Positions 17,654 to 33,626 of a DNA stretch of 64,000 bases are shown piece after piece. Source of the stretch: Bacteroides sp. (GTDB taxonomy: Bacteria; Bacteroidota; Bacteroidia; Bacteroidales; Marinifilaceae). Both the position numbers and the translations under genes were made by a program. Location of the stretch: contig JAETOX010000002.1 in assembly GCA_021771575.1 (NCBI GenBank), positions 1-64,000 on the forward strand, read 5' to 3'. Numbering within the stretch: the stretch's first letter is position 1; every line of letters starts with the position of its first letter. The notes under the pieces were generated by a model. That model was not told where the DNA came from and ran no database searches. It saw only the letters and a program-made list of their open reading frames with translations.

Positions 17654-18121
17654 TTATAATAACGCTTTTATACGCCCCACCATACGGCACAGGCTTTCTG
17701 AATCTTTCATAGCCAATTCAATATTCCAACACTCATCGATAAAGGGCAGGATCGCCGTATTATACTCCGGTCCTTTACTTGCTTTCCCTTCAGCCATCAA
17801 CTGTTTTTTCAACGTCCGATCCGAACTTTCCCGAATCAGGATATGGGTCAGAAAGTAAAAGGACTTACAACTAAACTGCATCTCCATGCAGGCTTTCGAT
17901 CCTCCTTGTTTCTGCAATCCGGCAGAAGGTAACCGACCGACATCGACAGAGATATATTTTGCAAATCCTTCCCGGTCGGCCATTAACCAGGCTTCTGCCT
18001 CATCTACAGCCACGTTGAACACAAAATTCTCCTCCGGTTGCAACTCTCCGAGTAATTTTCTCTTCAATTCAGGAGCGCAGCTATGCGCATCCAAATCCGG
18101 CAAAATCAGCCCGGACGACAA
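17654..18121 (-). pseudogene. DUF4276-like protein, probably N-terminally truncated
   Basis: LPDLDAHSCAPELKRKLLG...VAVDEAEAWLMADREGFAKYI... resembles the mid/C-terminal part of DUF4276; only a TTG start, and the upstream frame runs into a terminator hairpin. Confidence 0.5.
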
Positions 18122-18151: not shown

Positions 18152-18203
18152 AAAAAAGAATGATTTTCTCTAAAAACATCATTTTCAGAGAAAACCATTC
18201 TTT
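18152..18203 (-). terminator. Terminator at the 3' end of the minus-strand tubulin-like operon
   Basis: 16-bp stem (18157-18172/18188-18203, one G-U) followed on the minus strand by TTTTTT. Confidence 0.8.
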
Positions 18204-18233: not shown

Positions 18234-19223
18234 TCAGCATTCGAAGTCGGAAAGCGAGAATACCTTGTCCTCGGGTACTTCCGATCCGTCATCGTATTTA
18301 TCAGGTTGCCAGGTGCGCACATGGATCATAGGATGGGCATCATCTTTGAAGTCCATGAGCAGGAAGACGTATCCGACATCGCTGTAGCTATCCGAGCGCC
18401 ATCCTTGTTTGAGGGTCACACCGTAATAATAGTCCTTGACGGGATGTTTCACCACTTTGATGTCATCGAAGATCACGCGGATAGTCTTGTTGCGGGTGAA
18501 AACCCCTTTCAGCGCCGCGATATATTCGGCTTTGGTCTGGCGTTTGTATTCGAAACTCTTGTCGAGGGTAATGCCTCCGTCATTTTTCACCGGTTTGAGC
18601 TGTTTGCCGGTGATGATGAGCGCATCGTCGCTGAACACCTGCGACAGGAATGGCAGGTCCTTCCGGTTGTAGGCGGTACGGAAATTCTCCACGAAATCGA
18701 GGATGATTTGCCGCCTCCTCAGGTCGGTCACCGAAATATTGCTGCGGATCACTTTGCTATAGAGATGCAGGCCTATCGAGAAATAAAATTCCGAAATCCG
18801 CCCCGAGGCATCGAAATTGACGACAGCTTCCTGATAAAGATCGTCGAGATAAGCAGAGCGGTCGTGGGGCACCATGATCAGCGGAATGTTCCGCACCTGA
18901 AAACCGGCAGGTGTTTTCAGGCATTTCTCGATGACTTCGGTTTCCGTGCAACGAAAAGGGCAGGTTTCCCACAAAGCCATCAACGAAGTAATTGCCTCAG
19001 GGAGGATGCGTCCCTCGAAAGGTCCCATATTCACACTACGTTTTTCGTGCTGGGCCAACGAAAATTCGGTCAGCAAATCGCTCATCGTCTTTTCGGACCG
19101 TTCCTTGAACGTGCTTTTTTCTATTCCTGTGAGGATAAAATCCGTACGATACTGAGCCCGAACGGTACTCGGGCATATATATGCCGCCAGTATTACTCCC
19201 AATACAATGATATATTTTTTCAT
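18234..19223 (-). CDS. Secreted protein with NTF2/SnoaL-like domain
   Basis: Signal peptide MKKYIIVLGVILAAYICPSTVRAQ; FVENFRTAYNRKDLPFLSQVFSDDALIITG resembles the NTF2-like fold. Confidence 0.7.
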   Translation of the reverse strand: MKKYIIVLGVILAAYICPSTVRAQYRTDFILTGIEKSTFKERSEKTMSDLLTEFSLAQHEKRSVNMGPFEGRILPEAITSLMALWETCPFRCTETEVIEKCLKTPAGFQVRNIPLIMVPHDRSAYLDDLYQEAVVNFDASGRISEFYFSIGLHLYSKVIRSNISVTDLRRRQIILDFVENFRTAYNRKDLPFLSQVFSDDALIITGKQLKPVKNDGGITLDKSFEYKRQTKAEYIAALKGVFTRNKTIRVIFDDIKVVKHPVKDYYYGVTLKQGWRSDSYSDVGYVFLLMDFKDDAHPMIHVRTWQPDKYDDGSEVPEDKVFSLSDFEC

Positions 19224-19245
19224 AATTATCCGTTTTTTTAATCGA

Positions 19246-20250
19246 TCATTCATACAACAAAAACCAGATCGCACCGTTCCCTTCGCGGTAGCGGTCGGCC
19301 GAATCGGCCTTTCCCGTCAACAGATTGAGTCTCGTGCGGGTCCCTTTGCCCAGCACGGCCACGATATTTCCTTCACGATCGAAAAACAGCAGGTAGCATT
19401 CCTCGGGCCGGGAGGCGGAAGCCATCTTCCCGAACATCATCCGTCCGGCTTTCTTTTCGGCGATAAAAAAAGGCTGCACTTCGGCTATCGTTTTCATGCG
19501 CAGGATCCGATCGAGCCGGTCGTTGCCCGTGGTGCGCAATTCCAGGCGGGTCCTTACGGTATCGGTGACGGTCATAGAAACAGTATCGCGGATTACGACT
19601 CTCAGGGTGTCGGCGACAATAGTCGTCACGGTATCTTTTATCGTTACGACCGAGGTATCCGCAACCACGACGGGTTTCACCTCCGTTTTTACGACAGTGG
19701 TATCTTTTCCGGTAGCCAAGGAGTCTGCAACCAGCCGTATCGCCGTAGTATCCGCCTGCAAAGGGACATCCGGCGTATCGGTGCGGGCAACCGGCCCCAG
19801 GCTATCCGTTGCGGCGGAAGTATCCCCGGGCGGATCAATTTCCGCAGGCCGTACTTCCCCCGTCTGTACTTGCACAGGCTGCGCGCTTCCGCCATCCAGC
19901 CACACCGCCACCGTCTCTTTGGCAATGTAGGCGAACACCCTCGGTCGGTCTATTCGTTTCAAGCGTACGTAGCGGCAGGAATCCTGCAACAACCCGGCAA
20001 TCTGTTCACAGCCCGTTTCCTGCGCCTGAATTTCCAGAGCCAGCAGTTTCAAGGCCATGGCGGAGGCATCGTCTGCATCTCCCGAAGCCACATCCGAATA
20101 GTAATAATCGCCGCTGAGTTTGATTTCGCGAATCCGGGCTTTCTCAGCCGCAAAAGGGTCCTCTTCCTGGGCCATAGTGTCCCAGGGCAACAACAGCCCC
20201 AGACAGAGCCACAAAAATCCGGCCACTGCCCGTTTATTTCCGGTAATCAT
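19246..20250 (-). CDS. Secreted hypothetical protein with DTV-rich low-complexity linker
   Basis: Signal peptide (MITGNKRAVAGFLWLCLGLLLPWDTMAQ); EIKLSGDYYYSDVASGDADDASAMALKLLALEIQ; linker VTIKDTVTTIVADTLRVVIRDTVSMTVTDTVRT. Confidence 0.7.
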   Translation of the reverse strand: MITGNKRAVAGFLWLCLGLLLPWDTMAQEEDPFAAEKARIREIKLSGDYYYSDVASGDADDASAMALKLLALEIQAQETGCEQIAGLLQDSCRYVRLKRIDRPRVFAYIAKETVAVWLDGGSAQPVQVQTGEVRPAEIDPPGDTSAATDSLGPVARTDTPDVPLQADTTAIRLVADSLATGKDTTVVKTEVKPVVVADTSVVTIKDTVTTIVADTLRVVIRDTVSMTVTDTVRTRLELRTTGNDRLDRILRMKTIAEVQPFFIAEKKAGRMMFGKMASASRPEECYLLFFDREGNIVAVLGKGTRTRLNLLTGKADSADRYREGNGAIWFLLYE

Positions 20251-21379
20251 AAAACAAATCTTTAATATTATGGGTAGGAACATAGGTGTACAGGTCAACA
20301 TCCATCGAGGGCCGTTTACGGTCGAAGATATCGGTAGCACACCGGAAATAAAGGATATGGTTGTATCCCAGATCGGGATTGACCACTACGACTGTCCCGC
20401 TGATTTCCGTATCGTTCAGTGTCTCGGGTCCGAAATAGATGTAGCATTTCTGTTTCCGGCAATATTCCACCCAGTTTTGTACGTCCACTTCAAATTCCGT
20501 TATCTGGTTACCATAGCAGCGGTGTTTTATTTTCATCGCCACACGGCGGTCGCCGTAAAATCCTTCCTGAAAAAGATTGGCCAGCGACTCTCCGGGCAAT
20601 CCCTTCTCGAAGATCAGCACACAACGCTCCGCATCGAGTTGTTTATAATAGGTGTCGGTCTGCAATTCCGGAATCAGGTAAGAAGTACCCCGGCGGACAT
20701 AATAGCCTTTACGGGCCGTAGGCAGCAAATCTTTAACCGGTAGCGTATCCCACAGGGTACGTTTCGCCTCCACCCGGGCCAATTCTTCCATCAGCCCTTT
20801 CTCCATTTCGACTTTATCGCTGCCGAAAATCAGTTCATACTGTTTGGGAAACACCAGTGCCACCGTCCCGACGGACACCTGCCATCCGGCTTTGTATCCC
20901 GCCGAATCCGACTGTATGGAAAAAGGCGATTCACCACCCACAAAGAGCACGAAATCAGTCAGCCGCCGCATCCCCTTTTCATAGGCCATACCGTCAAGCA
21001 GCACTTCCACTTTGTCTTCATGCAGTTTCACTCGCCGGTCTTCCTCGCTGAGCAACAACAGTTCCAGCAGATAGCGTTCCATAAAATCGTATACGGGCGA
21101 AGCATAGCCTTTCCTGGTTTCTTCGTCGAACAGATGCAACCCGATAAAGCCTACGCGGCCGAAGATATCCTTTTTCATCTCCACCCGTTTGCCTGGACAC
21201 AGGACGGAAGCGTCGTACAGGCCTTCTTCTGTGAGGCGGATGCCCCGGTCGGCCAGTCGGCCGGCAATCTCTTCCAGTTTCAGTGTGCGGTAAGTCAGCG
21301 GTTGCTGTGCCATGGTCCGGCCTACCGGCAACCACAGCAACAGGCAACATACGTATTTCAACATTTTGTTTTTCATCAT
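20234..21379 (-). CDS. Secreted hypothetical protein
   Basis: Signal peptide MMKNKMLKYVCCLLLWLPVGRTMAQ; overlaps the flanking genes by a few nt, consistent with an operon. Confidence 0.7.
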   Translation of the reverse strand: MMKNKMLKYVCCLLLWLPVGRTMAQQPLTYRTLKLEEIAGRLADRGIRLTEEGLYDASVLCPGKRVEMKKDIFGRVGFIGLHLFDEETRKGYASPVYDFMERYLLELLLLSEEDRRVKLHEDKVEVLLDGMAYEKGMRRLTDFVLFVGGESPFSIQSDSAGYKAGWQVSVGTVALVFPKQYELIFGSDKVEMEKGLMEELARVEAKRTLWDTLPVKDLLPTARKGYYVRRGTSYLIPELQTDTYYKQLDAERCVLIFEKGLPGESLANLFQEGFYGDRRVAMKIKHRCYGNQITEFEVDVQNWVEYCRKQKCYIYFGPETLNDTEISGTVVVVNPDLGYNHILYFRCATDIFDRKRPSMDVDLYTYVPTHNIKDLFYDYRK

Positions 21380-21996
21380 TTCGCCCTCCCGATCATAACA
21401 ACACCTTTCTGTTTTTTCTCCGCATCGAACCATTTTCCCTGTACCAGTTCGCCTTTACTGAATTCGCCAACGATGTAATCGCCGGGTTCGGCCCGGCGTT
21501 CATGTTCGTCATATTTACTGATCAGGTGGGCATCGCGGTAGTAGAGGGTCCCGATTCCATGTGGAAGGCCCTCACGAATTTCGCCTTTATACACGCCGTA
21601 GGACAAGGCCACCGAGCCCACACCATTGAGCGTCTTTATATCTGCCGAATCAAGGGCTACGGCGGCCACGCCCGACTCTTCAGTATATGCCTCCTTCCCA
21701 GCCGGCGGCGTATTGTCCGCGGCAACAGTTTCCGGCTCCCGGACCTCTTCTTCGGAAGCATTGCTCGTATTCAGCCAATAAATCAGTCCTATACCCAGCA
21801 ACAACAAGACGACTACAGCAACCACGACTTTCACTCTCCCCGGACAAGCCTTTTGTCCGCCGGTTTCCACCTTTTGTAGTTCCGAACCGCACTCGGCACA
21901 AACGAAATCCGCTTCATCATCGGCGATTACCTGTTGCCGCTGACTGTTGGCCATGCCGCAGGGACCCAAATTCATACATTTACCAATACGTTCCAT
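21376..21996 (-). CDS. Single-pass membrane protein: N-terminal Cys4 zinc-ribbon-like domain, TM helix, C-terminal MORN-like repeats
   Basis: CMNLGPC...FVCAECGSEL; VKVVVAVVVLLLLGIGLIYWL TM; YKGEIREGLPHGIGTLYYRDA...GDYIVGEFSKGELVQGKW MORN-like. Confidence 0.7.
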   Translation of the reverse strand: MERIGKCMNLGPCGMANSQRQQVIADDEADFVCAECGSELQKVETGGQKACPGRVKVVVAVVVLLLLGIGLIYWLNTSNASEEEVREPETVAADNTPPAGKEAYTEESGVAAVALDSADIKTLNGVGSVALSYGVYKGEIREGLPHGIGTLYYRDAHLISKYDEHERRAEPGDYIVGEFSKGELVQGKWFDAEKKQKGVVMIGRAK

Positions 21997-22024
21997 TGTG
22001 TTTTCTGTTTATATTTTCTCACAT

Positions 22025-25000
22025 CTATTCATTGTCGTTCATCTGCCGAAAACGGGCCACTACGTTTTTCGCAGCCTGATTGAAGGCGAGGAAAACGGGA
22101 TCGGAGAGGCTACCGGCATGAGCGACTTTCACGGTGTTGACGGCATCGACCACCCGGGCGATGACCTCTTTCTGCCGGTCGATGTGGCGAAAAGCGGCAA
22201 GCTTTTTTTCCACATTGGCCCGGAGCGCCACCATAGCGGCCTCATCGAGTGTGGCTGCACTGTTTTCAAGATCCTTGCCGAGGAGGACAGGATCGGCAGC
22301 AAGTCCGTACTCGTCCTCCACCACCAATGCCAGCCGACACCGCCCCGTTTCGGGTTCTTCGTAAGGCTGCAAGAGTTCCATTCCCCAGGCCATCAACAGG
22401 TAGGGCAGGGCTTCGGCCCGTTTGCGGGCGAGCAGCTCGGTTTTCTCCTCCACCGTAAGCTTATAGAGCGAAGGCAGTTCTCCGTGGTTTTCGAGATGGG
22501 TCTCGAAACGGGCCACTTCGCCCGACGACGAGGTCATCAGCGCATCGTAAGCGCGACGCAATGTGCCCACCGATTGCAGGTAGCGCGGCGTGATATTCGA
22601 CTCGATATTTATAATCACGATTTCGTTGGAGTTACCGCCTTCGACGAGCTGGAAATTCTCATTGTTGGAAATTCCGGTGAACGTTTCGCGTACATGTTTA
22701 TAAAACCTTTCGTCGTCTTTGTATTCGGGCAAAACCACCAGAAGCCCTTCACGCACCCCCGGTCCGTCATTGCGTTGCGTCTCGTCGTATTTCACGAGTA
22801 CGGAGGCATGACGCACCAGCTCTTCGAGCTTGTCTTTGAGTCCCACGGGATTGCCGCTGTACTGCTCGCGGAGTTTCGCGAGAATATTCTCGCCGATGAG
22901 CCTTTCGTAACCAACAATACTACGTTCGTTCTCGGGATTGCGGAAAAAGAGTTCGGTCAGTTGCAGACACTCCTGCTGGCAGGCGGAAATCACTCCTTCA
23001 AGCCCCACATCCTGCAACAAGCGGGCAAACGAATGCTCGCCTTCGCCGAGGCGGGCGACGATGGCTTCGCGAACGGAACGCACCTTGCCGGAGGCAAAGT
23101 CTTTTTGCCGGATTGATTCGAGGGCCATATGGCGCACTTTGTGCGGATCGTAGTATTTGATGATGATATTCTGGCGATCGGCATCATCGAGGAGATCGTC
23201 GTTGCAATGGGAACGGACCTCGTTGTCGAAAAGTTCGAACGCCTTGACGAGCATGGCGGCATCGGCCTCAAGCACGGAACGCAGTTTCTGCAATCCCCCG
23301 ATCACTTCGAGCAACAACTCTTTACCGAATCCGTAGGCTTCGCACCAGGTCATCAGGGCATATTTCATTTTGACAGCTTCGGTGAAATCCGACAGGATGG
23401 TGTCTTTTTTCGAGGTAAATACCTTTTTGCCCAGCAATCCCACTTTGGGCCATTCGCGGGCGAGGGTATCCATTTCCGTCGATTTGGCGGCTATGGCAGC
23501 ACGGGCATCAGCAATCATCTTATCGAATCGTGCTGCCTGTTCGTCGAGATGGTCGAGCAGGCAGGCCAGCATACCCGCCAACTGCCACACCGATTTTTCG
23601 CCCCTTTCCCAACGGGCGAAAAAGTCGGCCCCAATCTCACTGATAATTTTACGGGCAATCTCCGACATTCCCACTTTACGCTTGATGCGGAAGAATTCGT
23701 CCACTCCTCCGGCTTGTCCCACAGAACGGAATTTCCGTTCGTAGAAATCCTTGACACAATTGGTGATGGCTACGAGCTTGGCTTCGTAGGGGATCACATT
23801 GTTGCCCATGACGTCGACGCGGAAGGTGTCGGCTACTTTATACTCATCGTTGATCGTACGCCAGCCTTCGGCCTTGTGGTTATCGAGCACGGCCCGCGAC
23901 AGACAGAGGTGGTCGGTGGTGAGGTTCCAGCGGTCGAGATTCTCTCGGCGCGTCACCTCCGAATAGTCGTCGTTGGGGAGGGGTTCGTCCTGGAATCCCA
24001 CTTCGTTGGAGGGATTGTTGTACAGGGCCTGCAACACCGTCTGCCGGGCATACGAATAAGCGAAATATTCGCGGATTTCCTGTTCGGGAATAGCCAGGCG
24101 CTTGATGCCGAAGGTCATGAATTTGAAACTATGGTGATAGCCATACAGGTTGTAGTCGGGATTCTCGCCCGTCTCGGCGCGTTGCAGCATCGACTCCTTA
24201 CCGGAATTGTCGGCGGCACCGACAGTAACCGTTTTCTGGAAAAGGAACTCGGCCATCGTAGCCGGCAGGACGGTGCCTACGTCGAAACGCACGTTGCTGC
24301 GGTTTTGCTCGGTCACGAGATAAGCCGAATAGAAAGGCGCCACACTGTCCAGGCGTTTGACGCCGAACTTGCGTTCGCCCACATCCCAGGGTTTGAACAA
24401 ACCGTAATCCAGTGCGTTCAGCTCCAGCAGGGCGGCATAACCGTTGGGCTGGTAGTTGGACGTGGTGGCCCAGCTTTTGTTGGGAATCTCCTCGGGGAGG
24501 AGCAAATAGAGCATAATGCGGTAGATCGTATGGTCGGGATAGTGCCGGCGAATCTGCGAAATCACATCTATGACGCTACCGCTCCCCGTACCTCCGGCCA
24601 GTCCGCAACACACGTGGAAAGTGATGCTTTGTCCGCGGGGATTGGTCTGCAGGCGGCGTACCCGGGCGTCGAGGGCTGCGGCGAAATCGCCGGCCCGGTT
24701 GGCAAACAGAAAGCGGCCGAGCCGGCGTTTCTGCCCGGCGGCCCCATCCTGCACTTTGGGGTCGTTGACGATGGTGCGCCAATCGTCGGCCATACCGATC
24801 CAGGGTTTCAGATAAGGGTAATTATCGATATTGTCGATATAGCTCTTGAGGTTGCCGGCCTTGATGCTCACCAGCGCTCCCTTGTCGAGCGCTACGCTGC
24901 TGCCCATAACGTTCCAGATGCCGCCCCGTTCATAAAGATCCTTTTCGCTCGAATCGAGGTAGAGATAATCCACCCACAAGCCTTCGGGACGAAGGTCGCC

Positions 25001-25087
25001 CCGGTATTTTTCAAAAATCAGGCGGCGATAGGCGGCCACCACTTTGCCGCCCGTACCGCCCAGTCCGATGATCAGATGGTTGTCCAT
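22025..25087 (-). CDS. Tubulin/FtsZ-like GTPase (tubulin-like domain, PF13809-type)
   Basis: N-terminal LIIGLGGTGGKVV and tubulin signature-like CCGLAGGTGSGSVIDVISQIRR; long C-terminal helical extension; 1020 aa. Confidence 0.8.
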   Translation of the reverse strand: MDNHLIIGLGGTGGKVVAAYRRLIFEKYRGDLRPEGLWVDYLYLDSSEKDLYERGGIWNVMGSSVALDKGALVSIKAGNLKSYIDNIDNYPYLKPWIGMADDWRTIVNDPKVQDGAAGQKRRLGRFLFANRAGDFAAALDARVRRLQTNPRGQSITFHVCCGLAGGTGSGSVIDVISQIRRHYPDHTIYRIMLYLLLPEEIPNKSWATTSNYQPNGYAALLELNALDYGLFKPWDVGERKFGVKRLDSVAPFYSAYLVTEQNRSNVRFDVGTVLPATMAEFLFQKTVTVGAADNSGKESMLQRAETGENPDYNLYGYHHSFKFMTFGIKRLAIPEQEIREYFAYSYARQTVLQALYNNPSNEVGFQDEPLPNDDYSEVTRRENLDRWNLTTDHLCLSRAVLDNHKAEGWRTINDEYKVADTFRVDVMGNNVIPYEAKLVAITNCVKDFYERKFRSVGQAGGVDEFFRIKRKVGMSEIARKIISEIGADFFARWERGEKSVWQLAGMLACLLDHLDEQAARFDKMIADARAAIAAKSTEMDTLAREWPKVGLLGKKVFTSKKDTILSDFTEAVKMKYALMTWCEAYGFGKELLLEVIGGLQKLRSVLEADAAMLVKAFELFDNEVRSHCNDDLLDDADRQNIIIKYYDPHKVRHMALESIRQKDFASGKVRSVREAIVARLGEGEHSFARLLQDVGLEGVISACQQECLQLTELFFRNPENERSIVGYERLIGENILAKLREQYSGNPVGLKDKLEELVRHASVLVKYDETQRNDGPGVREGLLVVLPEYKDDERFYKHVRETFTGISNNENFQLVEGGNSNEIVIINIESNITPRYLQSVGTLRRAYDALMTSSSGEVARFETHLENHGELPSLYKLTVEEKTELLARKRAEALPYLLMAWGMELLQPYEEPETGRCRLALVVEDEYGLAADPVLLGKDLENSAATLDEAAMVALRANVEKKLAAFRHIDRQKEVIARVVDAVNTVKVAHAGSLSDPVFLAFNQAAKNVVARFRQMNDNE

Positions 25088-25119
25088 TTATACTTTGTTT
25101 TGATGTAAACACAATCAGG

Positions 25120-25866
25120 TTATTCCTGGCCGGTCTGTTCTTTCTCTCCGCGTTTTTTAGCGTTGAGATTGGCCCGGTTGAGTTTCACGGTGCGCTGATA
25201 GTCGATCTGCCGGTTTACTTCACCAACGAACAGGCCGATGCCGTCGCCTTCACCGTCGACGGAGACCGTCACGTTGACCATCTGCCAGAGGTTGCGCCAG
25301 GCCGTATCAAGCACCCTGCGGGCTTCCTTTACGCGACTGGCTCCGAGGGCCGCCTGTTCGGCATTACGGTTGGTGAAAACAGTCATAAAGGCTTCGCATT
25401 TTTCTTTCATCGTCCGGACGTGAATGTCGGCAGCCATGGCCTTGATATCCGCACTGTAGGCTTCGGAAGCGAGGTCCTGCAACAGGTTTTTATACACTCC
25501 GTTGGCCTGTGTATAGGGGAGATCGCGGGGATCACCGTAGCGGTCGAACAATCCCATCACGCGGTCGGCCGAAGCAGCCACTGCCGCATCGACAGAGAGC
25601 GAAGCCGACATCGACAGCAATTGAAGGGCCCGCCAGGCCCGGTCGCGTTCAACATCGAGCTGCACCACCGAGGCCGTCAGTTCGCTCTTGCGCTGTTGTT
25701 CCAACGAGAGGTCCTCCTCCTGCAAGGCGGCCCGGAAAGCTGCCAGGACTTTGGCCATTGCTTCGCCCGTCAGTTTGTCTGCTACGCCCGATACAAAAGT
25801 CATAAAACCGAAATGCTCTTCATTACGCATCCATTGTGCACCGAATTTTTTTAATAATGTTGCCAT
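25120..25866 (-). CDS. DUF6261-like helical protein
   Basis: MRNEEHFGFMTFVSGVADKL...ERDRAWRALQLL pattern as I recall for DUF6261; predominantly helical composition. Confidence 0.5.
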   Translation of the reverse strand: MATLLKKFGAQWMRNEEHFGFMTFVSGVADKLTGEAMAKVLAAFRAALQEEDLSLEQQRKSELTASVVQLDVERDRAWRALQLLSMSASLSVDAAVAASADRVMGLFDRYGDPRDLPYTQANGVYKNLLQDLASEAYSADIKAMAADIHVRTMKEKCEAFMTVFTNRNAEQAALGASRVKEARRVLDTAWRNLWQMVNVTVSVDGEGDGIGLFVGEVNRQIDYQRTVKLNRANLNAKKRGEKEQTGQE

Positions 25867-25893
25867 AACCGTAAAATTTTAAGTTGTTAATAA

Positions 25894-26179
25894 AAAAGTA
25901 CCGTCCTGCAGCCTTGCCGTTTCCATCCCGGGGGGGAAAACTCCGTTACGGCTAACGGACGGTTGTTTTTCCTTTCGGAAAGTATCACCCTGCGGACAGG
26001 CCGACGCTTCCGGAGTGTGGAAAATCACTCGGCGTCTGCGGGCCGGTGTTTTTCGGGGCCGGAAAACGGCGTCACACAGACGGACTGCCATTTTCGGAAA
26101 CCGGAGAGCTTCGGCATGTAGCCGGGACGGAGCTTCCTACAGCCTGGAGGAAACATCGTACGCTCAAGACGTCGTTTTC
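25894..26179. repeat. Degenerate 42-nt-period tandem repeat
   Basis: In the minus frame, Phe codons fall exactly every 14 codons (aa 10, 24, 38, 52, 66 of ORF 25879-26091); the plus frame of ORF 26015-26401 has Phe at aa 13, 27 and 55. Confidence 0.65.
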
Positions 26180-26220
26180 CGAACCCGGACAGCTCCGTCA
26201 CGGCCGCCCGACACCGGGCG

Positions 26221-27255
26221 TCAGCTGCCGGGGGTGATTTCCGTTTCGTGGCCTCCGCTAATGGTTCCCTCGATCTCTTGCACCGTTCCGTCGGTCAACG
26301 TGGCCTCCTCCATCGAAAATCCCACATCTCCCTTAGTAACAACGCCTTCTTTCAGAGTGATCTTAAAGATCGTGCGTTTCAAACGCGTAACAGTGACATA
26401 ACCGGAGTATATCTTGATGGTTCGGCTACCGTCGGCATTAGTCCACTCGACATCTACACCTACAAGTTCCGTTTGCTCGCTTTCCTGAGCGACAAAATCT
26501 ACGACATCCGATAAATTAGACAACTGATAAATATTATCCGGCACATACAACGAATCGGCATGAATGGCAATAGTAGGAGCATTAGTCATTTGAAATGTCA
26601 AGGAACCTTCCGTCAGCCCGGCTACTTCGACGCGAGCTCCGAAAACCACCCGGTAAAGGTCGATTGCGATCTTTCCGTTTTCTACAGGCACATAATCGGA
26701 CAGCAATCCGTAATAGCGATCGAGGATAGGGTGAGAGTAGCTAGCATAGGAATTTCCTTCAGGCTGATACAAGTAGTAGACCCCTGCATAATAATAATCA
26801 TGAGTCCATGAGCCCATATTTATTTTATTATCTATTTTAGAAAAAGAATAACTAGACCAATAAGTCGTCGAATCCGTAGCCATAGCAAGCACCTCCCTAT
26901 AGTTTTTCACCAACGTCACCTTAAATTGATACAAATTCCCTTCCAGCAGATTGACAGTCATTCCTTCCTTTTTATTAAACATTCCGTAAGCATAGTCGGT
27001 ATAATTTCCTCCCGACGCCGGTTTGGAATAAACGTTAATGACATACAAATCTTCGGTGCCGGCTTCGGCTTTGGTGATGGGTTCGTCGGTCACTTCGATA
27101 TCGGCCAGTTCTTTCACAAAATCGAGCGACACGGTGTGGTATGTCTCTTCGGTTTGGGGAGCGTCCGGAACCTGCGGTTCCACGGTTTGCGGTTCGTCGT
27201 TGCTGCTACATGCCAAAAAAGCGACAGCGAACAAGAGATAAAATAGATGTTTCAT
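26221..27255 (-). CDS. Predicted lipoprotein sharing a C-terminal module with the adjacent BACON-LRR protein
   Basis: Lipobox AFLAC|SSNDE; C-terminal RVVFGARVEVAGLTEGSL...TLTDGTVQEIEGTI parallels the C-terminus of 27286-30729. Confidence 0.75.
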   Translation of the reverse strand: MKHLFYLLFAVAFLACSSNDEPQTVEPQVPDAPQTEETYHTVSLDFVKELADIEVTDEPITKAEAGTEDLYVINVYSKPASGGNYTDYAYGMFNKKEGMTVNLLEGNLYQFKVTLVKNYREVLAMATDSTTYWSSYSFSKIDNKINMGSWTHDYYYAGVYYLYQPEGNSYASYSHPILDRYYGLLSDYVPVENGKIAIDLYRVVFGARVEVAGLTEGSLTFQMTNAPTIAIHADSLYVPDNIYQLSNLSDVVDFVAQESEQTELVGVDVEWTNADGSRTIKIYSGYVTVTRLKRTIFKITLKEGVVTKGDVGFSMEEATLTDGTVQEIEGTISGGHETEITPGS

Positions 27256-27285
27256 ATCCTTTGAAATTTTTAATTTATATTCGGT

Positions 27286-30200
27286 TTACCAGATAATGCC
27301 CTCGATGTGTATGATTTCGCCATCGGTGAGGGGTTTGTTTTCCACGTCCATATTCATGCCGTCGTCTTTGAAGATGGTGTGGAGACGGGTGGCGGTGTTG
27401 TGTTTAAAGGTGACCCTTTCGGAGGACAGTTCGCGCTCAAGCCCATTGGTTTTTTCCCAAACGAATTTCACCTCAAGGGTTTCTTCGTAACTCACGTCGG
27501 TCCACCTGCCGTTGGTATTGGCAAAAGTAATAGCCGCATTCACCTTGTGTTCCGCAGCAGCCGCATCTATGTAAAGATAAGGCGCCCCCTCGATTTCGAT
27601 ACGTATACGTCCTTCGCGCAGGGAATCGACCTCACAGGTAACGACGAACGACACGCGGGTCATTACAATCTCCAGTTCCTCATCGGCCGTCGGAGTGTAG
27701 CCCAGACGTTCGCCGGCATAGCGGGCAAGGTGGGGCCGATCGTAGGTGGCTCCGTCGGAAGCGAGGGTAGTGGCTCCGCGATCGATGTGACCAAGCCAGC
27801 GGAGGCTGTCGCGCACAAAGGCGTCGGAGCCGCCCGAGGGCAGGGAGGGATCGTAATCGGGCAGGGGAGTGACGCCCCGGCCGGTCGGCTGCCAATCGAC
27901 AAGGTCTAGGGGCTGGGCCCAGCCGTTGCCGTCGGCCTGCACAGCCGTGCGGCCTTCGCCAATGAGGGTGGTGAGGATGTTATACTCACGGTCGCTGCTC
28001 AGGGTGAGCGTCAGGCGGGTACTATCGTCGTAGATACCATGGCCGTAGGGGGTAAATATGTCCGTGGTTCCCCGTGGCCTCGCCATCACCTGCACCCCGT
28101 AGAGATGCGTCCCCGCTTTCGACTGGTCCACCTCGGCAGCATCGCCGCCCAGACGCAAGGTCACGGTATATTCGCCCGCAACTTCGGGCTCCAGGGACAG
28201 GTTGCCACCGTCCTGTTGCGGCAGGATATTCACATCAGGATTGAAACGATCCCAATTAGGCAAGGCCTGTACTTCGGGCGGCACACTACCTGTAAACTGA
28301 TTGCCAGAGAGGTGCAAACCATATCCCCAATTACTAACATCCAGATTGACCAGTTTACCCAGCTCTACAGGAATCTCACCCGTGAGATTGTTGTTCTGTA
28401 ACCCCAACGTTATGAGATTCGTCAGATTGCCCAATTCAGGAGGTATACTCCCACTCAACTGATTTCCATCCAAATGCAAATATTTTAACTGAGTCATATT
28501 TCCCAGTTCGGCAGGAATCGGACCACTAAGTTGGTTATCACTCAAAACCAACCATTCCAAGTTTGTCAAATCACCCAATTCTTTGGGTATAGAACCGGTG
28601 AATTGATTATTATTCAAAAATAATTCTTTCAAGTTCACCAGTTTTCCCAGTTCGGCAGGAATAGAACCGGTAAACTGATTATCCCTTAAATCTAAACATA
28701 CCAATGTGGTGAGATTGCCCAAGCCAGCCGGTAACGAACCATTGAAAGCGTTCCCAGACAAATTCAAATTATGCAAATTCCGGCAATTCATAATCCACTC
28801 CGGGAAAGCACCATCCAACCCACACATCTGAACACAAAACGTATGCAGACCAGTCAGATTGCTGTAACTGTCGGGGATACCACCTTCCAATCGGGCATGG
28901 CTCACGCGGAAAAACGTCAACTTAGTCAGGTTCCCGATTTCCAGTGGCAACGTCCCCGTAAAAGGATTGCCATATAATTCCAAATAAGTCAGTTTCGTCA
29001 GATTGCCCAAGGTTGCCGGAATAACACCACTCAATTGGTTAAACCCCAACGACAAAAGTTTCAGTTCGCTCAGTTGACCAATCACATCAGGAATCGTTCC
29101 TGTCAGATTATTGCCCACACCATAACTTTCTCCCAAATGTAATTCGGTCACCCGCTCCACGGCCTCTCCGGCCTTGGTTCCCGGGGCAATCATTGCCGTG
29201 GTGACGCCGTACCATTCAGAGAGCGGCCGATCGGAGCACCAGTTGTCGTTACGCGTCCAGTTGTCGCCACCCGTAGCTTTGTAGAAAGCGATAAGAACAT
29301 CCCGGTCGGAAGCGATGCCTTCCTGACGCACCAGAAGCAGAGCGGATTTCCGGGCCTCTTCGGGGCCTGCCGTCACAGTAAGTATCGTTTCGCGCGGAGC
29401 ACTTCCGTTGTCGCCAACCGTTATCATCAATTGATTGCCTTCGGCTACGGCGCTACACCAATCCACCGTATCGGGCACAGCTACATCCCAGGCCGTTTGG
29501 TTGGTCATCACCGTTACGGCAAGCGTCCCGCCGACTGTCTCCATTGCCAAGGTATCGACCGCCAACGCCAGCGTAACATCCGGCTGCTGCACAATCTCCA
29601 GGGTTTGCGACAAATTGCCCGCCCGGATATTCACTGTTCCGCGGCGTACTTCCGTTGTACTCGGGTTTTTCGCAGCATACATCGTCAGGGTCTGATCGCC
29701 GGGCAAAAGCGTACACCACCCGGCTTCGGTCTCGGCCGTCCACGTTCCTTCTGTAAATACGGCGATACTTTGGATGGATTCGCCGCTACCAAACGTCACC
29801 GACCCGGTCGAAAGGATCAATTCGGGCGTACGACCCAATTGTACCACCGGAATATTCTTTTTGAGCATACCGTCACCGCTACCCGCCGTGAGCAACAGTT
29901 CGCAACGCCGACCCGTCAGGCCCTCGTTGGCATCCACCTGCACCATAAGGCTTGTGCCGCTTTTATCCGCCCGACACCACGGGGAGGTACTGGGTACGGT
30001 TACTTCCCAATTTGCGAGGTTGGTCATCACCACCAGGGTCTGACGTCCCCCTTCGGCAGCGAAAGCTCCGGGGTCGGAAATGTTGAGCACCGGATCGCTA
30101 CCCAATTGGATCACCTTGACGGTGGTCACCGCCGTTGAGCCCGATTCGCCTTCGCCACGTACCGTAATCAGTGCTTCGCGCTGTTGTTTGCCGCTGTAGC

Positions 30201-30729
30201 TGCCAGCCGCCACCGTCAAGCAGTCGCCTTCGCGTAGGGCGTTACACCAATCGGCCCCTACAGCCACTGTCGCTGTCCACGCTTCCAGGTTGGTGGTGAT
30301 CTTCACCGAAGCATCGCCGCCTTCGAGCGGAAGTCCCACGGCCGGCGGATCGGCCACTATACGCGGTTCCGAGCCTAACTGGGTGACTGCTATTTCTTTG
30401 ATTTCCTTTTTGCTTTTGCCTACCTCGACGGAAATCACGGCGGTCCGCTCCTTTTCGCCGGTATTGGCCAGGGCGGTCACCGTCAGCGTGGTACCCGCCT
30501 GCTGCACGCTACACCACACACTACCCGCTTCGTCCACCGTCGCCGTCCATTCTTCGTAATTTGTGGTGACGGTCACCGACTCACTGCCTCCTGCAGGTTG
30601 CAATGTCACCCCCGGAGCGGAGAGCGTCAGCTCGGGCTCAGGGCCCCACGATGCCTTGTCGAAATCGTCGGGATAACAACCCGCCATCGTGATCGAAAAG
30701 GCCAATAGTAACAGATATAATCGTCTCAT
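27286..30729 (-). CDS. Predicted surface lipoprotein with about five BACON domains and plant-type LRRs
   Basis: Lipobox ITMAGC|YPDDFD; five repeats ending in V.QLG/QQ with W.A.V....WC; LRRs L..N.LSG.IP.ELGNLT.L. Confidence 0.88.
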   Translation of the reverse strand: MRRLYLLLLAFSITMAGCYPDDFDKASWGPEPELTLSAPGVTLQPAGGSESVTVTTNYEEWTATVDEAGSVWCSVQQAGTTLTVTALANTGEKERTAVISVEVGKSKKEIKEIAVTQLGSEPRIVADPPAVGLPLEGGDASVKITTNLEAWTATVAVGADWCNALREGDCLTVAAGSYSGKQQREALITVRGEGESGSTAVTTVKVIQLGSDPVLNISDPGAFAAEGGRQTLVVMTNLANWEVTVPSTSPWCRADKSGTSLMVQVDANEGLTGRRCELLLTAGSGDGMLKKNIPVVQLGRTPELILSTGSVTFGSGESIQSIAVFTEGTWTAETEAGWCTLLPGDQTLTMYAAKNPSTTEVRRGTVNIRAGNLSQTLEIVQQPDVTLALAVDTLAMETVGGTLAVTVMTNQTAWDVAVPDTVDWCSAVAEGNQLMITVGDNGSAPRETILTVTAGPEEARKSALLLVRQEGIASDRDVLIAFYKATGGDNWTRNDNWCSDRPLSEWYGVTTAMIAPGTKAGEAVERVTELHLGESYGVGNNLTGTIPDVIGQLSELKLLSLGFNQLSGVIPATLGNLTKLTYLELYGNPFTGTLPLEIGNLTKLTFFRVSHARLEGGIPDSYSNLTGLHTFCVQMCGLDGAFPEWIMNCRNLHNLNLSGNAFNGSLPAGLGNLTTLVCLDLRDNQFTGSIPAELGKLVNLKELFLNNNQFTGSIPKELGDLTNLEWLVLSDNQLSGPIPAELGNMTQLKYLHLDGNQLSGSIPPELGNLTNLITLGLQNNNLTGEIPVELGKLVNLDVSNWGYGLHLSGNQFTGSVPPEVQALPNWDRFNPDVNILPQQDGGNLSLEPEVAGEYTVTLRLGGDAAEVDQSKAGTHLYGVQVMARPRGTTDIFTPYGHGIYDDSTRLTLTLSSDREYNILTTLIGEGRTAVQADGNGWAQPLDLVDWQPTGRGVTPLPDYDPSLPSGGSDAFVRDSLRWLGHIDRGATTLASDGATYDRPHLARYAGERLGYTPTADEELEIVMTRVSFVVTCEVDSLREGRIRIEIEGAPYLYIDAAAAEHKVNAAITFANTNGRWTDVSYEETLEVKFVWEKTNGLERELSSERVTFKHNTATRLHTIFKDDGMNMDVENKPLTDGEIIHIEGIIW

Positions 30730-30731
30730 CC

Positions 30732-31574
30732 TTACCTCCGCTTTTTAAAGTTGATATAATAGCCCAAGCCAAACTGCCAGTCGCACATGAACTTGTCGCC
30801 GATCAGGGCATTCGTACCGCCGGAGAGGGCGAAATTGCCCAGCCGGAAACTCAGTCCCAGCTCGGCTTCGGGTCCTTTCTGGCTGTCGCTCATGAATTTC
30901 GGGGCACCCTCCACCGGAACGGGATTTTCCCACAGCCGGGCGTATTTGCCGTAACCGCCACCCAGGTACATATAGAACCATTTGAGGATACCGATGCGTA
31001 CACCGGCCGTATAGCTCTCACGCACATACCCTTTATCGGCGGCCCCGCTCACATCGTAAAAAGCAGTGACATCCTCGATCGCCACGCCTTCTTCGCTCTT
31101 CATGGAGGTCTTGTAGCCTACATATACCCCAAACCGCTTGCCGAAAGCCAGGCGTGCCCCCACGGGAGCCGTGCCCGAATACAGGTATTCGATCAGCAAG
31201 CCCGGCTCAAACTTGAATTTGTCCTCGGGTGGAAATACCGTAAAGAACAGTTTCTGTTTACTACTCAACGACAATTTCAACTCCTCACGCACAAAACCCG
31301 GAGCCGAAATATAAAGTGTCCGCTTGGCCTCGTCCGTCAGGTCGAATACAAAACGATACACCCACATCTTGTCGACATTCTGTTCGCAAGTACATGCTTC
31401 CCCGAACGTCGACTTCACATTCAGATCCTGCAACGGAGAAATCAGCTCTACACACGCCTTACCCGTCTCGGGATAAAACGCCGTAGGCTGTTCCTGCTGC
31501 CGGATCACCAGCTTTTTCTGCGCTTCCGCCTGCACCATCCACAGGCAACAAAGCATACATAATAACCATTTACT
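30732..31574 (-). CDS. Secreted protein, candidate outer-membrane beta-barrel
   Basis: Signal peptide (MSKWLLCMLCCLWMVQAEA); alternating hydrophobic/aromatic strands in the C-terminal half ending FGLGYYINFKKRR. Confidence 0.7.
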   Translation of the reverse strand, partial: SKWLLCMLCCLWMVQAEAQKKLVIRQQEQPTAFYPETGKACVELISPLQDLNVKSTFGEACTCEQNVDKMWVYRFVFDLTDEAKRTLYISAPGFVREELKLSLSSKQKLFFTVFPPEDKFKFEPGLLIEYLYSGTAPVGARLAFGKRFGVYVGYKTSMKSEEGVAIEDVTAFYDVSGAADKGYVRESYTAGVRIGILKWFYMYLGGGYGKYARLWENPVPVEGAPKFMSDSQKGPEAELGLSFRLGNFALSGGTNALIGDKFMCDWQFGLGYYINFKKRR

Positions 31575-31619
31575 CATTTCATATATCACAATTCATGTTT
31601 TATTTATCCATACCCCCCT

Positions 31620-31754
31620 TTACTGCGCCTCCTCCGATAAAGACAGGCCGTACCCCTCCTGTTTGGGAGTTACCATCAGCTTTTTTTGAGCCTCTGCATA
31701 CTGTAAGACCATACAAGATAAAATACAAATCAGAAGTTTAATTATCATTTTCAT
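31620..31754 (-). CDS. Small secreted peptide or truncated paralog of the following gene
   Basis: ATG-initiated MKMIIKLLICILSCMVLQYAEAQKKLMVTPKQEGYGLSLSEEAQ*; AEAQKKL.V matches the N-terminus of 30732-31574. Confidence 0.5.
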   Translation of the reverse strand: MKMIIKLLICILSCMVLQYAEAQKKLMVTPKQEGYGLSLSEEAQ

Positions 31755-31879: not shown

Positions 31880-31899
31880 GTGTGTGTGTGTGTGTGTGT
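31880..31899. repeat. (GT)10 dinucleotide microsatellite
   Basis: gtgtgtgtgtgtgtgtgtgt directly visible, 126 bp upstream of the first ORF of the minus-strand operon. Confidence 0.95.
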
Positions 31900-32069
31900 T
31901 AACAAATTATTTCGATCTGCCAAATTTTTCAGAAAAAAAAATGATAGATTTAATGTTAAATTCGCTATTTTATTCAGCACCAACATACAAAAAATAATCT
32001 TAATACATATCGAAACACGCAACAAAGATATGTTTTTTAATTAAAAAACATAAAAAACATTTATCTTTT

Positions 32070-33626
32070 TTACTGTTTCAATATTTTGATGTTACTGTCG
32101 ATTACCCATCGACCCGTACGTGCAGGACCTATATAATTCAAAATTTGCGCTTTTTTCAAATAGCGAATTTCCCTCTCGACAGTGGGTTTGGAAATATTCA
32201 AGTGTGATGCCATTGCTGCCCTCGTCACCCGACCATTATCGGCTATCAATTGCAACAATGCGTATTGCCGTGCGGTAACTTCCACTACATTTTGGGCATC
32301 ATTTTGGGCATCATTTTGGGCATCATTTTGGGCATCATTTTGGGCATCATTTTGAATAAATGTCGGATGGACCGGAAAAATAACCATAAAATAAGTTCTG
32401 GTTTCATCACTTTCAAAAAAAGCTGCCGGAGAACCATTCATGCGCATTTCTTTAAGCATCGTTGGAATACCTGTCGCTTTTCCTTCCGTTAAACCCAATT
32501 CTTTCAAAAAATCCCCCAATTTACGATTACGGTAACGACGGGCCTGAACCATTCCTTTGCTTAATTCATCCAACCGAATGGACCGGTCTAAACCGCCATA
32601 ACTAATGATACGAATACAATGGGGCTCGATTGTAATTTCCACCGGTTCCCGCATCTGATAATCTCTATGATATAAGGCATTCACCACAGCTTCTTCCAAG
32701 GCTTGATAAGGATAATTAAAAAATCGTCTGGATTCGGCCTGATCAGAAAGTTTAATAACCCGTTCTTTGATCACATTTGTTTTCAAATAGCTCATCACCC
32801 CATTAATCATACTATCGATAGGTCCTTTTATGGAAGGAATTTCGACAAAATTTGACGGATCTTGCAATTTTCCCTTTGGATAAATGACAATATCGACCTG
32901 CGTATAAGGAAAATATTTCGCCGGATTGTCGGAAAACATCATTAATGCAATATTCTTAGGTACCAATGTTTCCCGGGGACCTGCCACTACATCCATTTGC
33001 CGCAAGGTATCGGAAAATTTTGTCTCTTCCATTTGTTCCACAAGCCGGCTTCCGGTCCTCATCAAAAAATCGCGTACCAATGTTTGGGAAATATCTTTCA
33101 ACGAAGCCTGCACATTCGCCCGGTCATCGAACGGAATTTGATTCGTCAATTCGATCAATTCCCGTTCGAATTCTCCTTTGGCAATAATCGACGAAGAATT
33201 ATAGCGAATATAATAATTATAACGTTTCTGCTTTACTGTTATTTCATCCGGAACCTTATAAGGACGGGACATTCCTCCAGGAACCCAAATAACTAAAATT
33301 TTTTTACCATCGATGTCCTCGATACTGGTATGAGGATAATAGGTAGGTTGTATCAAATTATTAAAACCGATCATCGCCCGCCCGATAGGCTCTATTTCAT
33401 CAATACGAAGTCCTTTGACAGGCCTTAGAGCACATCCATTTCGCTCCTCTACCCCAACTAAAATATATCCGCCACCTGTATTATCGAAATCATTGGCAAA
33501 TGCGCAAATAGTGCGATATATCGCATCAGGATTCCACCCTTCTTTATATTCGATGCGCGAACTTTCGATAGTCGTTGCGTCCAATAATTGTCCAATGTTA
33601 ACAGGTAATGCCATATTTTTTTTCAT
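32070..33626 (-). CDS. AlbA_2/Schlafen-like ATP-binding, RecG-related putative transcriptional regulator
   Basis: SSRIEYKEGWNPDAIYRTICAFANDFDNTGGGYILVGVEE (AlbA_2); C-terminal HTH; linker (NDAQ)n. Confidence 0.85.
   Translation of the reverse strand: MKKNMALPVNIGQLLDATTIESSRIEYKEGWNPDAIYRTICAFANDFDNTGGGYILVGVEERNGCALRPVKGLRIDEIEPIGRAMIGFNNLIQPTYYPHTSIEDIDGKKILVIWVPGGMSRPYKVPDEITVKQKRYNYYIRYNSSSIIAKGEFERELIELTNQIPFDDRANVQASLKDISQTLVRDFLMRTGSRLVEQMEETKFSDTLRQMDVVAGPRETLVPKNIALMMFSDNPAKYFPYTQVDIVIYPKGKLQDPSNFVEIPSIKGPIDSMINGVMSYLKTNVIKERVIKLSDQAESRRFFNYPYQALEEAVVNALYHRDYQMREPVEITIEPHCIRIISYGGLDRSIRLDELSKGMVQARRYRNRKLGDFLKELGLTEGKATGIPTMLKEMRMNGSPAAFFESDETRTYFMVIFPVHPTFIQNDAQNDAQNDAQNDAQNDAQNVVEVTARQYALLQLIADNGRVTRAAMASHLNISKPTVEREIRYLKKAQILNYIGPARTGRWVIDSNIKILKQ
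32290..32352. repeat. 12-bp tandem repeat (about 5 copies of TTTTGGGCATCA) encoding NDAQ
   Basis: Direct reading of the tandem tttgggcatcat units; in frame within the AlbA_2 gene. Confidence 0.95.

Follow-up and report, generated by a model that had tools for sequence, protein, structure and literature searches.

A tubulin-fold FtsZl1 protein, its conserved G-H-I-J neighbors and a possible modular trans-envelope relay in Bacteroidales

The stretch considered here (the window) comprises 64,000 nt, positions 1 to 64,000 of contig JAETOX010000002.1 in assembly GCA_021771575.1, from a Bacteroides sp. placed by GTDB in the Marinifilaceae. Its subject is a minus-strand gene array at 18234-31754 that encodes, among other products, a tubulin-like protein of the FtsZl1 family (Table 1). 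A first-pass annotation, made from the letters alone, had described a co-directional and tightly packed array that ends in a strong terminator, and this description holds, with a hairpin of the intrinsic-terminator type closing the array. Judging from signal peptides and hydrophobic helices, the products are predicted to lie in the cytosol, inner membrane, periplasm and outer membrane or cell surface, as that annotation had supposed, and the three proteins with signal peptides that it listed at the downstream end (H, I and J) can indeed be recognized.

Table 1. Features of the array, in order of transcription (letters are our gene labels; window coordinates)
Feature	Coordinates	Strand	Description	Basis
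A	31620..31754	-	Truncated copy of the beginning of B, 44 amino acids	Pairwise score against shuffles
B	30732..31577	-	K-like; PEGA-type N-terminal region and candidate beta-barrel; likely start 31577	K profile
C	27286..30729	-	BACON-LRR lipoprotein; accessory, outside the conserved core	Pfam
D	26221..27255	-	Lipoprotein homologous to the C-terminal 150 amino acids of C; accessory	blastp C/D, E = 1.9e-8
E	25120..25866	-	DUF6261 helical protein	PF19775, E = 9e-26
FtsZl1	22025..25087	-	FtsZl1/Tubulin_2 tubulin-fold protein, 1020 amino acids	PF13809, model, Foldseek, alignment
G	21376..21996	-	Linker: cytosolic Zn-ribbon, single transmembrane (TM) helix, periplasmic MORN	Synteny, CxxC, TM-MORN tail
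H	20234..21379	-	Signal-peptide protein; new family, no Pfam; likely start 21379	Conserved downstream of G
I	19246..20250	-	Signal-peptide protein; variable linker between conserved N- and C-terminal parts; likely start 20250	Syntenic family
J	18234..19223	-	Signal-peptide protein with NTF2-like C-terminal domain; likely start 19223	Family comparison
Terminator-like hairpin	18156-18202	-	20 pairs, then T-run	Closes the array

The tubulin-like protein had been proposed to belong with PF13809 (Tubulin_2), and that model covers its whole tubulin domain at E = 1.7e-54 (185.8 bits, compared with a curated cut-off of 27), while the canonical PF00091 model stays below its own cut-off (16.9 bits vs. 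33). The protein consists of an N-terminal tubulin domain with a GGTGSG loop, a long helical middle and a mixed C-terminal part; the loop lies at residues 165-170, and G165, G168, S169 and G170 are invariant in a 44-sequence alignment. An AlphaFold model built with 44 homologues (pLDDT 87.6, pTM 0.75) also predicts a tubulin fold, followed by helices at 434-626, and Foldseek gives CetZ (E = 3.7e-6) and tubulins as its best PDB matches, over ~350 residues. A PDB sequence search with the FtsZl1 profile gave one weak tubulin match (E = 0.022). On the strength of the model and the family match, we consider this a true member of the FtsZl1/Tubulin_2 family with a tubulin fold, with GTPase activity and filament formation as predictions only (FtsZl1 is the family name used by Makarova and Koonin 2010, PMC2875224). 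Its nearest relatives are proteins of Bacteroidaceae and Prevotellaceae (41-48% identity). It is probably not the division FtsZ, because the genome holds two other PF00091 genes, which are neighbors on another contig. These two canonical Tubulin/FtsZ-family genes, on the same strand (G000:C75:11375-13163; frames of 433 and 381 amino acids), represent a possible tandem FtsZ duplication.

FtsZl1 neighborhoods came from two sources, a sampling of the order and a set of 80 named loci, and the counts that follow are over 89 loci. G is directly after FtsZl1 in 63 of these, including loci from Pseudomonadota and Verrucomicrobiota, H lies no more than five genes downstream in 41, and the exact string FtsZl1-G-H-I-J occurs in 24 (median gaps of -11 to +20 nt). 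In Bacteroidia, the string is preceded by a small TM protein and J is often followed by a further gene, K, of PEGA-type character (PEGA was matched in some loci). The expectation that the neighborhood would be conserved in other genomes is thus borne out for FtsZl1-G-H-I-J, and not for the lipoproteins or the DUF6261 protein. By gene order and sequence similarity, the conserved unit is FtsZl1-G-H-I-J(-K) rather than an LRR adhesin array, and the FtsZl1 gene is its conserved center. One Cytophagia FtsZl1 locus has an added caspase (E = 1.2e-33). In a tree of FtsZl1 proteins (from which L024 and L025, odd matches mainly to the helical region, were left out), branches are long and the proteins labeled H-I-J do not form one clade, with at least two changes forced; the vWA-type Bacteroidales proteins form a clade of their own (100/100), and the window protein falls outside it. 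It should be noted that the record titled "archaeon isolate Horse_feces2" (L096), the FtsZl1 region of which is identical to that of Bacteroidales bacterium L091, is probably mislabeled or a mixed bin.

G had been annotated as a Zn-ribbon/TM/MORN linker, and it retains that description: in the window protein the MORN and Zn-ribbon matches are weak and there is one hydrophobic helix (TM at 57-75), and a CxxC near the N-terminus is present in 72 of 76 family members. The tail is variable, with MORN in Bacteroidales and a PBP-like region plus OmpA in one verrucomicrobial and one Chlorobiaceae member scanned. That PBP-like and OmpA regions follow the same Zn-ribbon-TM segment in two distant proteins fits a role for G as a cell-wall tether. 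A Janthinobacterium FtsZl1 locus (L080:13889-15019) has a separate MORN_2-repeat protein after G.

Signal peptides are predicted on H, I, J and K. No consistent Pfam family was found among 22 I and 28 H proteins (and none for H or I of the window), and PDB sequence searches with H, I and J profiles returned nothing convincing. The model of H is confident (pLDDT 90.5), and a fold search with it gives only a weak NTF2-like resemblance (best E = 0.015). A relative of I that is fused to J has a weak LPP20 match (E = 0.003); I and J occur as one protein of ~600 amino acids at L171:8887-10662 and L172:8614-10449. J is the most conserved of the accessory genes (33-49% identity to relatives), and NTF2-like matches (Cds6_C/DUF4440) were obtained for 8-9 of 23 members. 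The window has a K-like gene, B, at the other end of the array: a profile of 25 post-J proteins, with B left out, recovers B when run on 57 window open reading frames (ORFs; E = 8.5e-8), and reversed sequences gave nothing. The outer-membrane barrel suggested for B in the first-pass annotation is plausible only, given an OMP_b-brl match that is below cut-off (E = 0.026).

H and J are also present in genomes that show no FtsZl1 gene next to them, and J-domain proteins, found in 54 of the 394 genomes sampled from the order, are often without FtsZl1. Three loci of Bacteroidales are informative. At L169, a TIR_2 protein (3.5e-14) carries the TM-MORN tail of G and is followed by H-J-K; at L167, a Ser/Thr protein kinase (Pkinase, 4.7e-28) has a G-type TM-MORN tail and is followed by H-I-J; and at L178, a second TIR_2 protein (4.6e-6) has the G tail and is followed by J. 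No tubulin gene is present in the stretches read at these three loci. Homology of the tails to G is strong (3e-18, 1e-17 and 3e-8 for L169, L167 and L178, respectively, when a reversed-sequence control reached 4e-4), and therefore the periplasmic module is shared and the cytosolic head exchanged. The window locus has the same arrangement, a TM-MORN protein and then H and J, and differs in that a TIR or kinase head is what the other loci have.

Our preferred reading, to which we assign a probability of roughly one half (slightly less, 0.48), is that the products of the locus form a modular relay for signals across the envelope, with FtsZl1 standing where other versions have a TIR or kinase output domain. 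An envelope event would be sensed by the H/I/J/K part, which would be attached to peptidoglycan or the outer membrane, and the signal would travel through the MORN-TM protein G, the cytosolic Zn-ribbon of which would bind FtsZl1 and gate the GTP-dependent assembly of that protein at the inner membrane. In the sister versions, it would be the TIR or kinase domain that is switched. FtsZl1 would thus be an output stage and not a division or cargo-moving cytoskeleton, and the upstream surface lipoproteins C and D would be optional add-ons. The sensing, binding and assembly steps are ones that we infer, whereas the conserved unit and the sharing of the tail are read from sequence and synteny. Several points weigh against this interpretation. 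Three loci are the whole basis for the TIR- and kinase-headed versions, and at five more H loci the gene before H encodes a secreted protein of TPR/Sel1 type, with no head recognized. The direction of signaling is suggested only by the nature of TIR and kinase domains, and MORN domains are promiscuous. Finally, the authors of the 2010 study could not find the T6-H7 elements (PMC2875224).

The tubulin fold, the membrane anchor G and the envelope proteins could also be expected of a membrane-remodeling machine, in which G-anchored FtsZl1 filaments deform the inner membrane or drive the formation of vesicles, with H-K as periplasmic and outer-membrane partners; such a role was proposed in 2010 (PMC2875224). 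However, a purely mechanical role leaves unexplained why the same tail and H-I-J proteins occur under TIR or kinase heads without a tubulin, and we regard remodeling as distinctly unlikely.

The first-pass annotation had suggested that the array could couple a cytoskeletal GTPase to a surface adhesin or ligand-binding apparatus; a system built around a surface adhesin, here the BACON-LRR lipoprotein, is not supported. The domains that it named are present (in C, BACON x5 at 2.3e-35 and LRR at 1.7e-33, and in E the DUF6261 helical region), and C, D and E share with the core the strand, short gaps and high GC over 18-32 kb. However, none of the other FtsZl1 genes examined has C, D or E next to it, and thus we consider these three accessory or chance neighbors of the core. 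E, which was seen in this locus only, occupies the slot usually held by the small TM protein. In addition, a GC-rich gap of 354 nt (25867-26220) separates the lipoprotein genes from DUF6261-FtsZl1, which makes a single transcript of A-D and E-J no more than a possibility; a -7-like TAnnTTTG motif was not found within it (the motif is present upstream of A, at 32030). Adhesin coupling is very improbable, and the LRR adhesin as the business end was rejected for want of conservation beside other FtsZl1 genes. At the upstream end, A had been taken for a small secreted peptide; its score of 68 against the start of B was matched in 0 of 2000 shuffles, and it is probably a remnant. The leader of ORF A contains an (AC)10 dinucleotide repeat (31880-31900), located between the TATCTTTG motif (32030) and the array, the length of which could vary.

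The array sits in an insertion site between carB and PBP. The spacing of these genes is 66-170 bp in siblings G105 and G207, they directly adjoin in sibling G396, and in G397 the site is filled by an unrelated insert; overall, the hot spot is empty in three sibling species. GC content is 51-56% over 18-32 kb, compared with 39-47% on either side (14-18 and 32-38 kb). The assembly is a draft of 383 contigs, but a binning error is made less likely by the genes flanking the array, the match of which to siblings is 86-93%. FtsZl1 is present in one of eight species of the genus and in three of 60 in the family (the other two being vWA-type), and PF13809 (E <= 0.001) in 21 of 394 genomes of the order. 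The patchy distribution, the empty sibling hot spot and the GC island indicate an accessory, horizontally acquired device. The same insertion site also contains a Schlafen AlbA_2/HATPase regulator-like gene with a run of DAQN repeats (window 32070-33626), with GC lower than that of the array. On the other side of the array lies a truncated HEC-01B-type remnant (a defense candidate; window 17654-18121), a relative of which (209 amino acids) adjoins an ATPase-like gene in sibling G397.

That remnant, together with the TIR, kinase and caspase partners and the listing of tubulins among conflict-system effectors (PMC7159879), would suit an anti-phage or anti-competitor system, in which envelope attack elicits a cytosolic FtsZl1, TIR or kinase response that stops growth. 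However, PADLOC gives no convincing match for the core genes, and FtsZl1 relatives were found on only four plasmids and on no phage (a plasmid search with J also found none). This possibility, somewhat unlikely in our estimate, is a sub-case of the relay, and the confidence given to the one overlaps with that given to the other.

Division FtsZ is held at the inner membrane by the anchors ZipA, FtsA and SepF. The window protein would resemble it in having a tubulin fold and, presumably, a partner that keeps it at the inner membrane; it differs in its probable function, in an anchor that is unrelated and in its accessory distribution. Calling the system undescribed, as was done initially, is too strong: a 2010 paper had already described FtsZl1 and operons of membrane-associated type that contain it (PMC2875224), and tubulin-containing GTPase-centric conflict operons of Firmicutes and Actinobacteria were described in 2020 (Kaur et al.; PMC7159879). 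Literature searches found no paper on the present operon type, and some of H, I and J may be among the unnamed families of the 2010 paper. With the vWA-FtsZl1 operons of that paper, the window shares an FtsZl1 with a tubulin domain and helical C-terminal region and membrane-associated neighbors, and some relatives share OmpA-type proteins (PMC2875224). However, no vWA, P-loop GTPase or OmpA-type protein was matched by Pfam among the window operon products scanned (the lack of vWA had been noted at the outset), and the fixed partners are instead G-H-I-J; vWA genes are found beside other Bacteroidales FtsZl1 genes, and fusions of G with OmpA occur among more distant relatives. Because the window FtsZl1 lies outside the vWA clade, we do not claim membership in that operon type. 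The GAP1-N2 systems have in common with the window tubulin-family proteins with coiled coils and operons with Zn-ribbons and TM proteins, as well as PEGA/NTF2 domains and protein kinases (PMC7159879). Components that define those systems are a DO-type GTPase, GAP1 and FNIII. There is no GTPase, FNIII (fn3) or vWA match by Pfam in the window operon (no GAP1 model was among those searched), and thus membership is not claimed here either; the working principles may nonetheless be alike.

What the relay reading offers is a concrete candidate for the link across the membrane, namely G, with its conserved Zn-ribbon-TM-MORN architecture. The existence of TIR- and kinase-headed forms of this module points to signaling or response rather than adhesion. 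More tentatively, the locus could represent a Bacteroidota family of trans-envelope receptors with exchangeable cytosolic heads, one in which a tubulin-family GTPase would serve as effector in the response to envelope stress or in immunity. From the forms with other heads comes a testable prediction of the role of FtsZl1, which would be to respond to an envelope signal.

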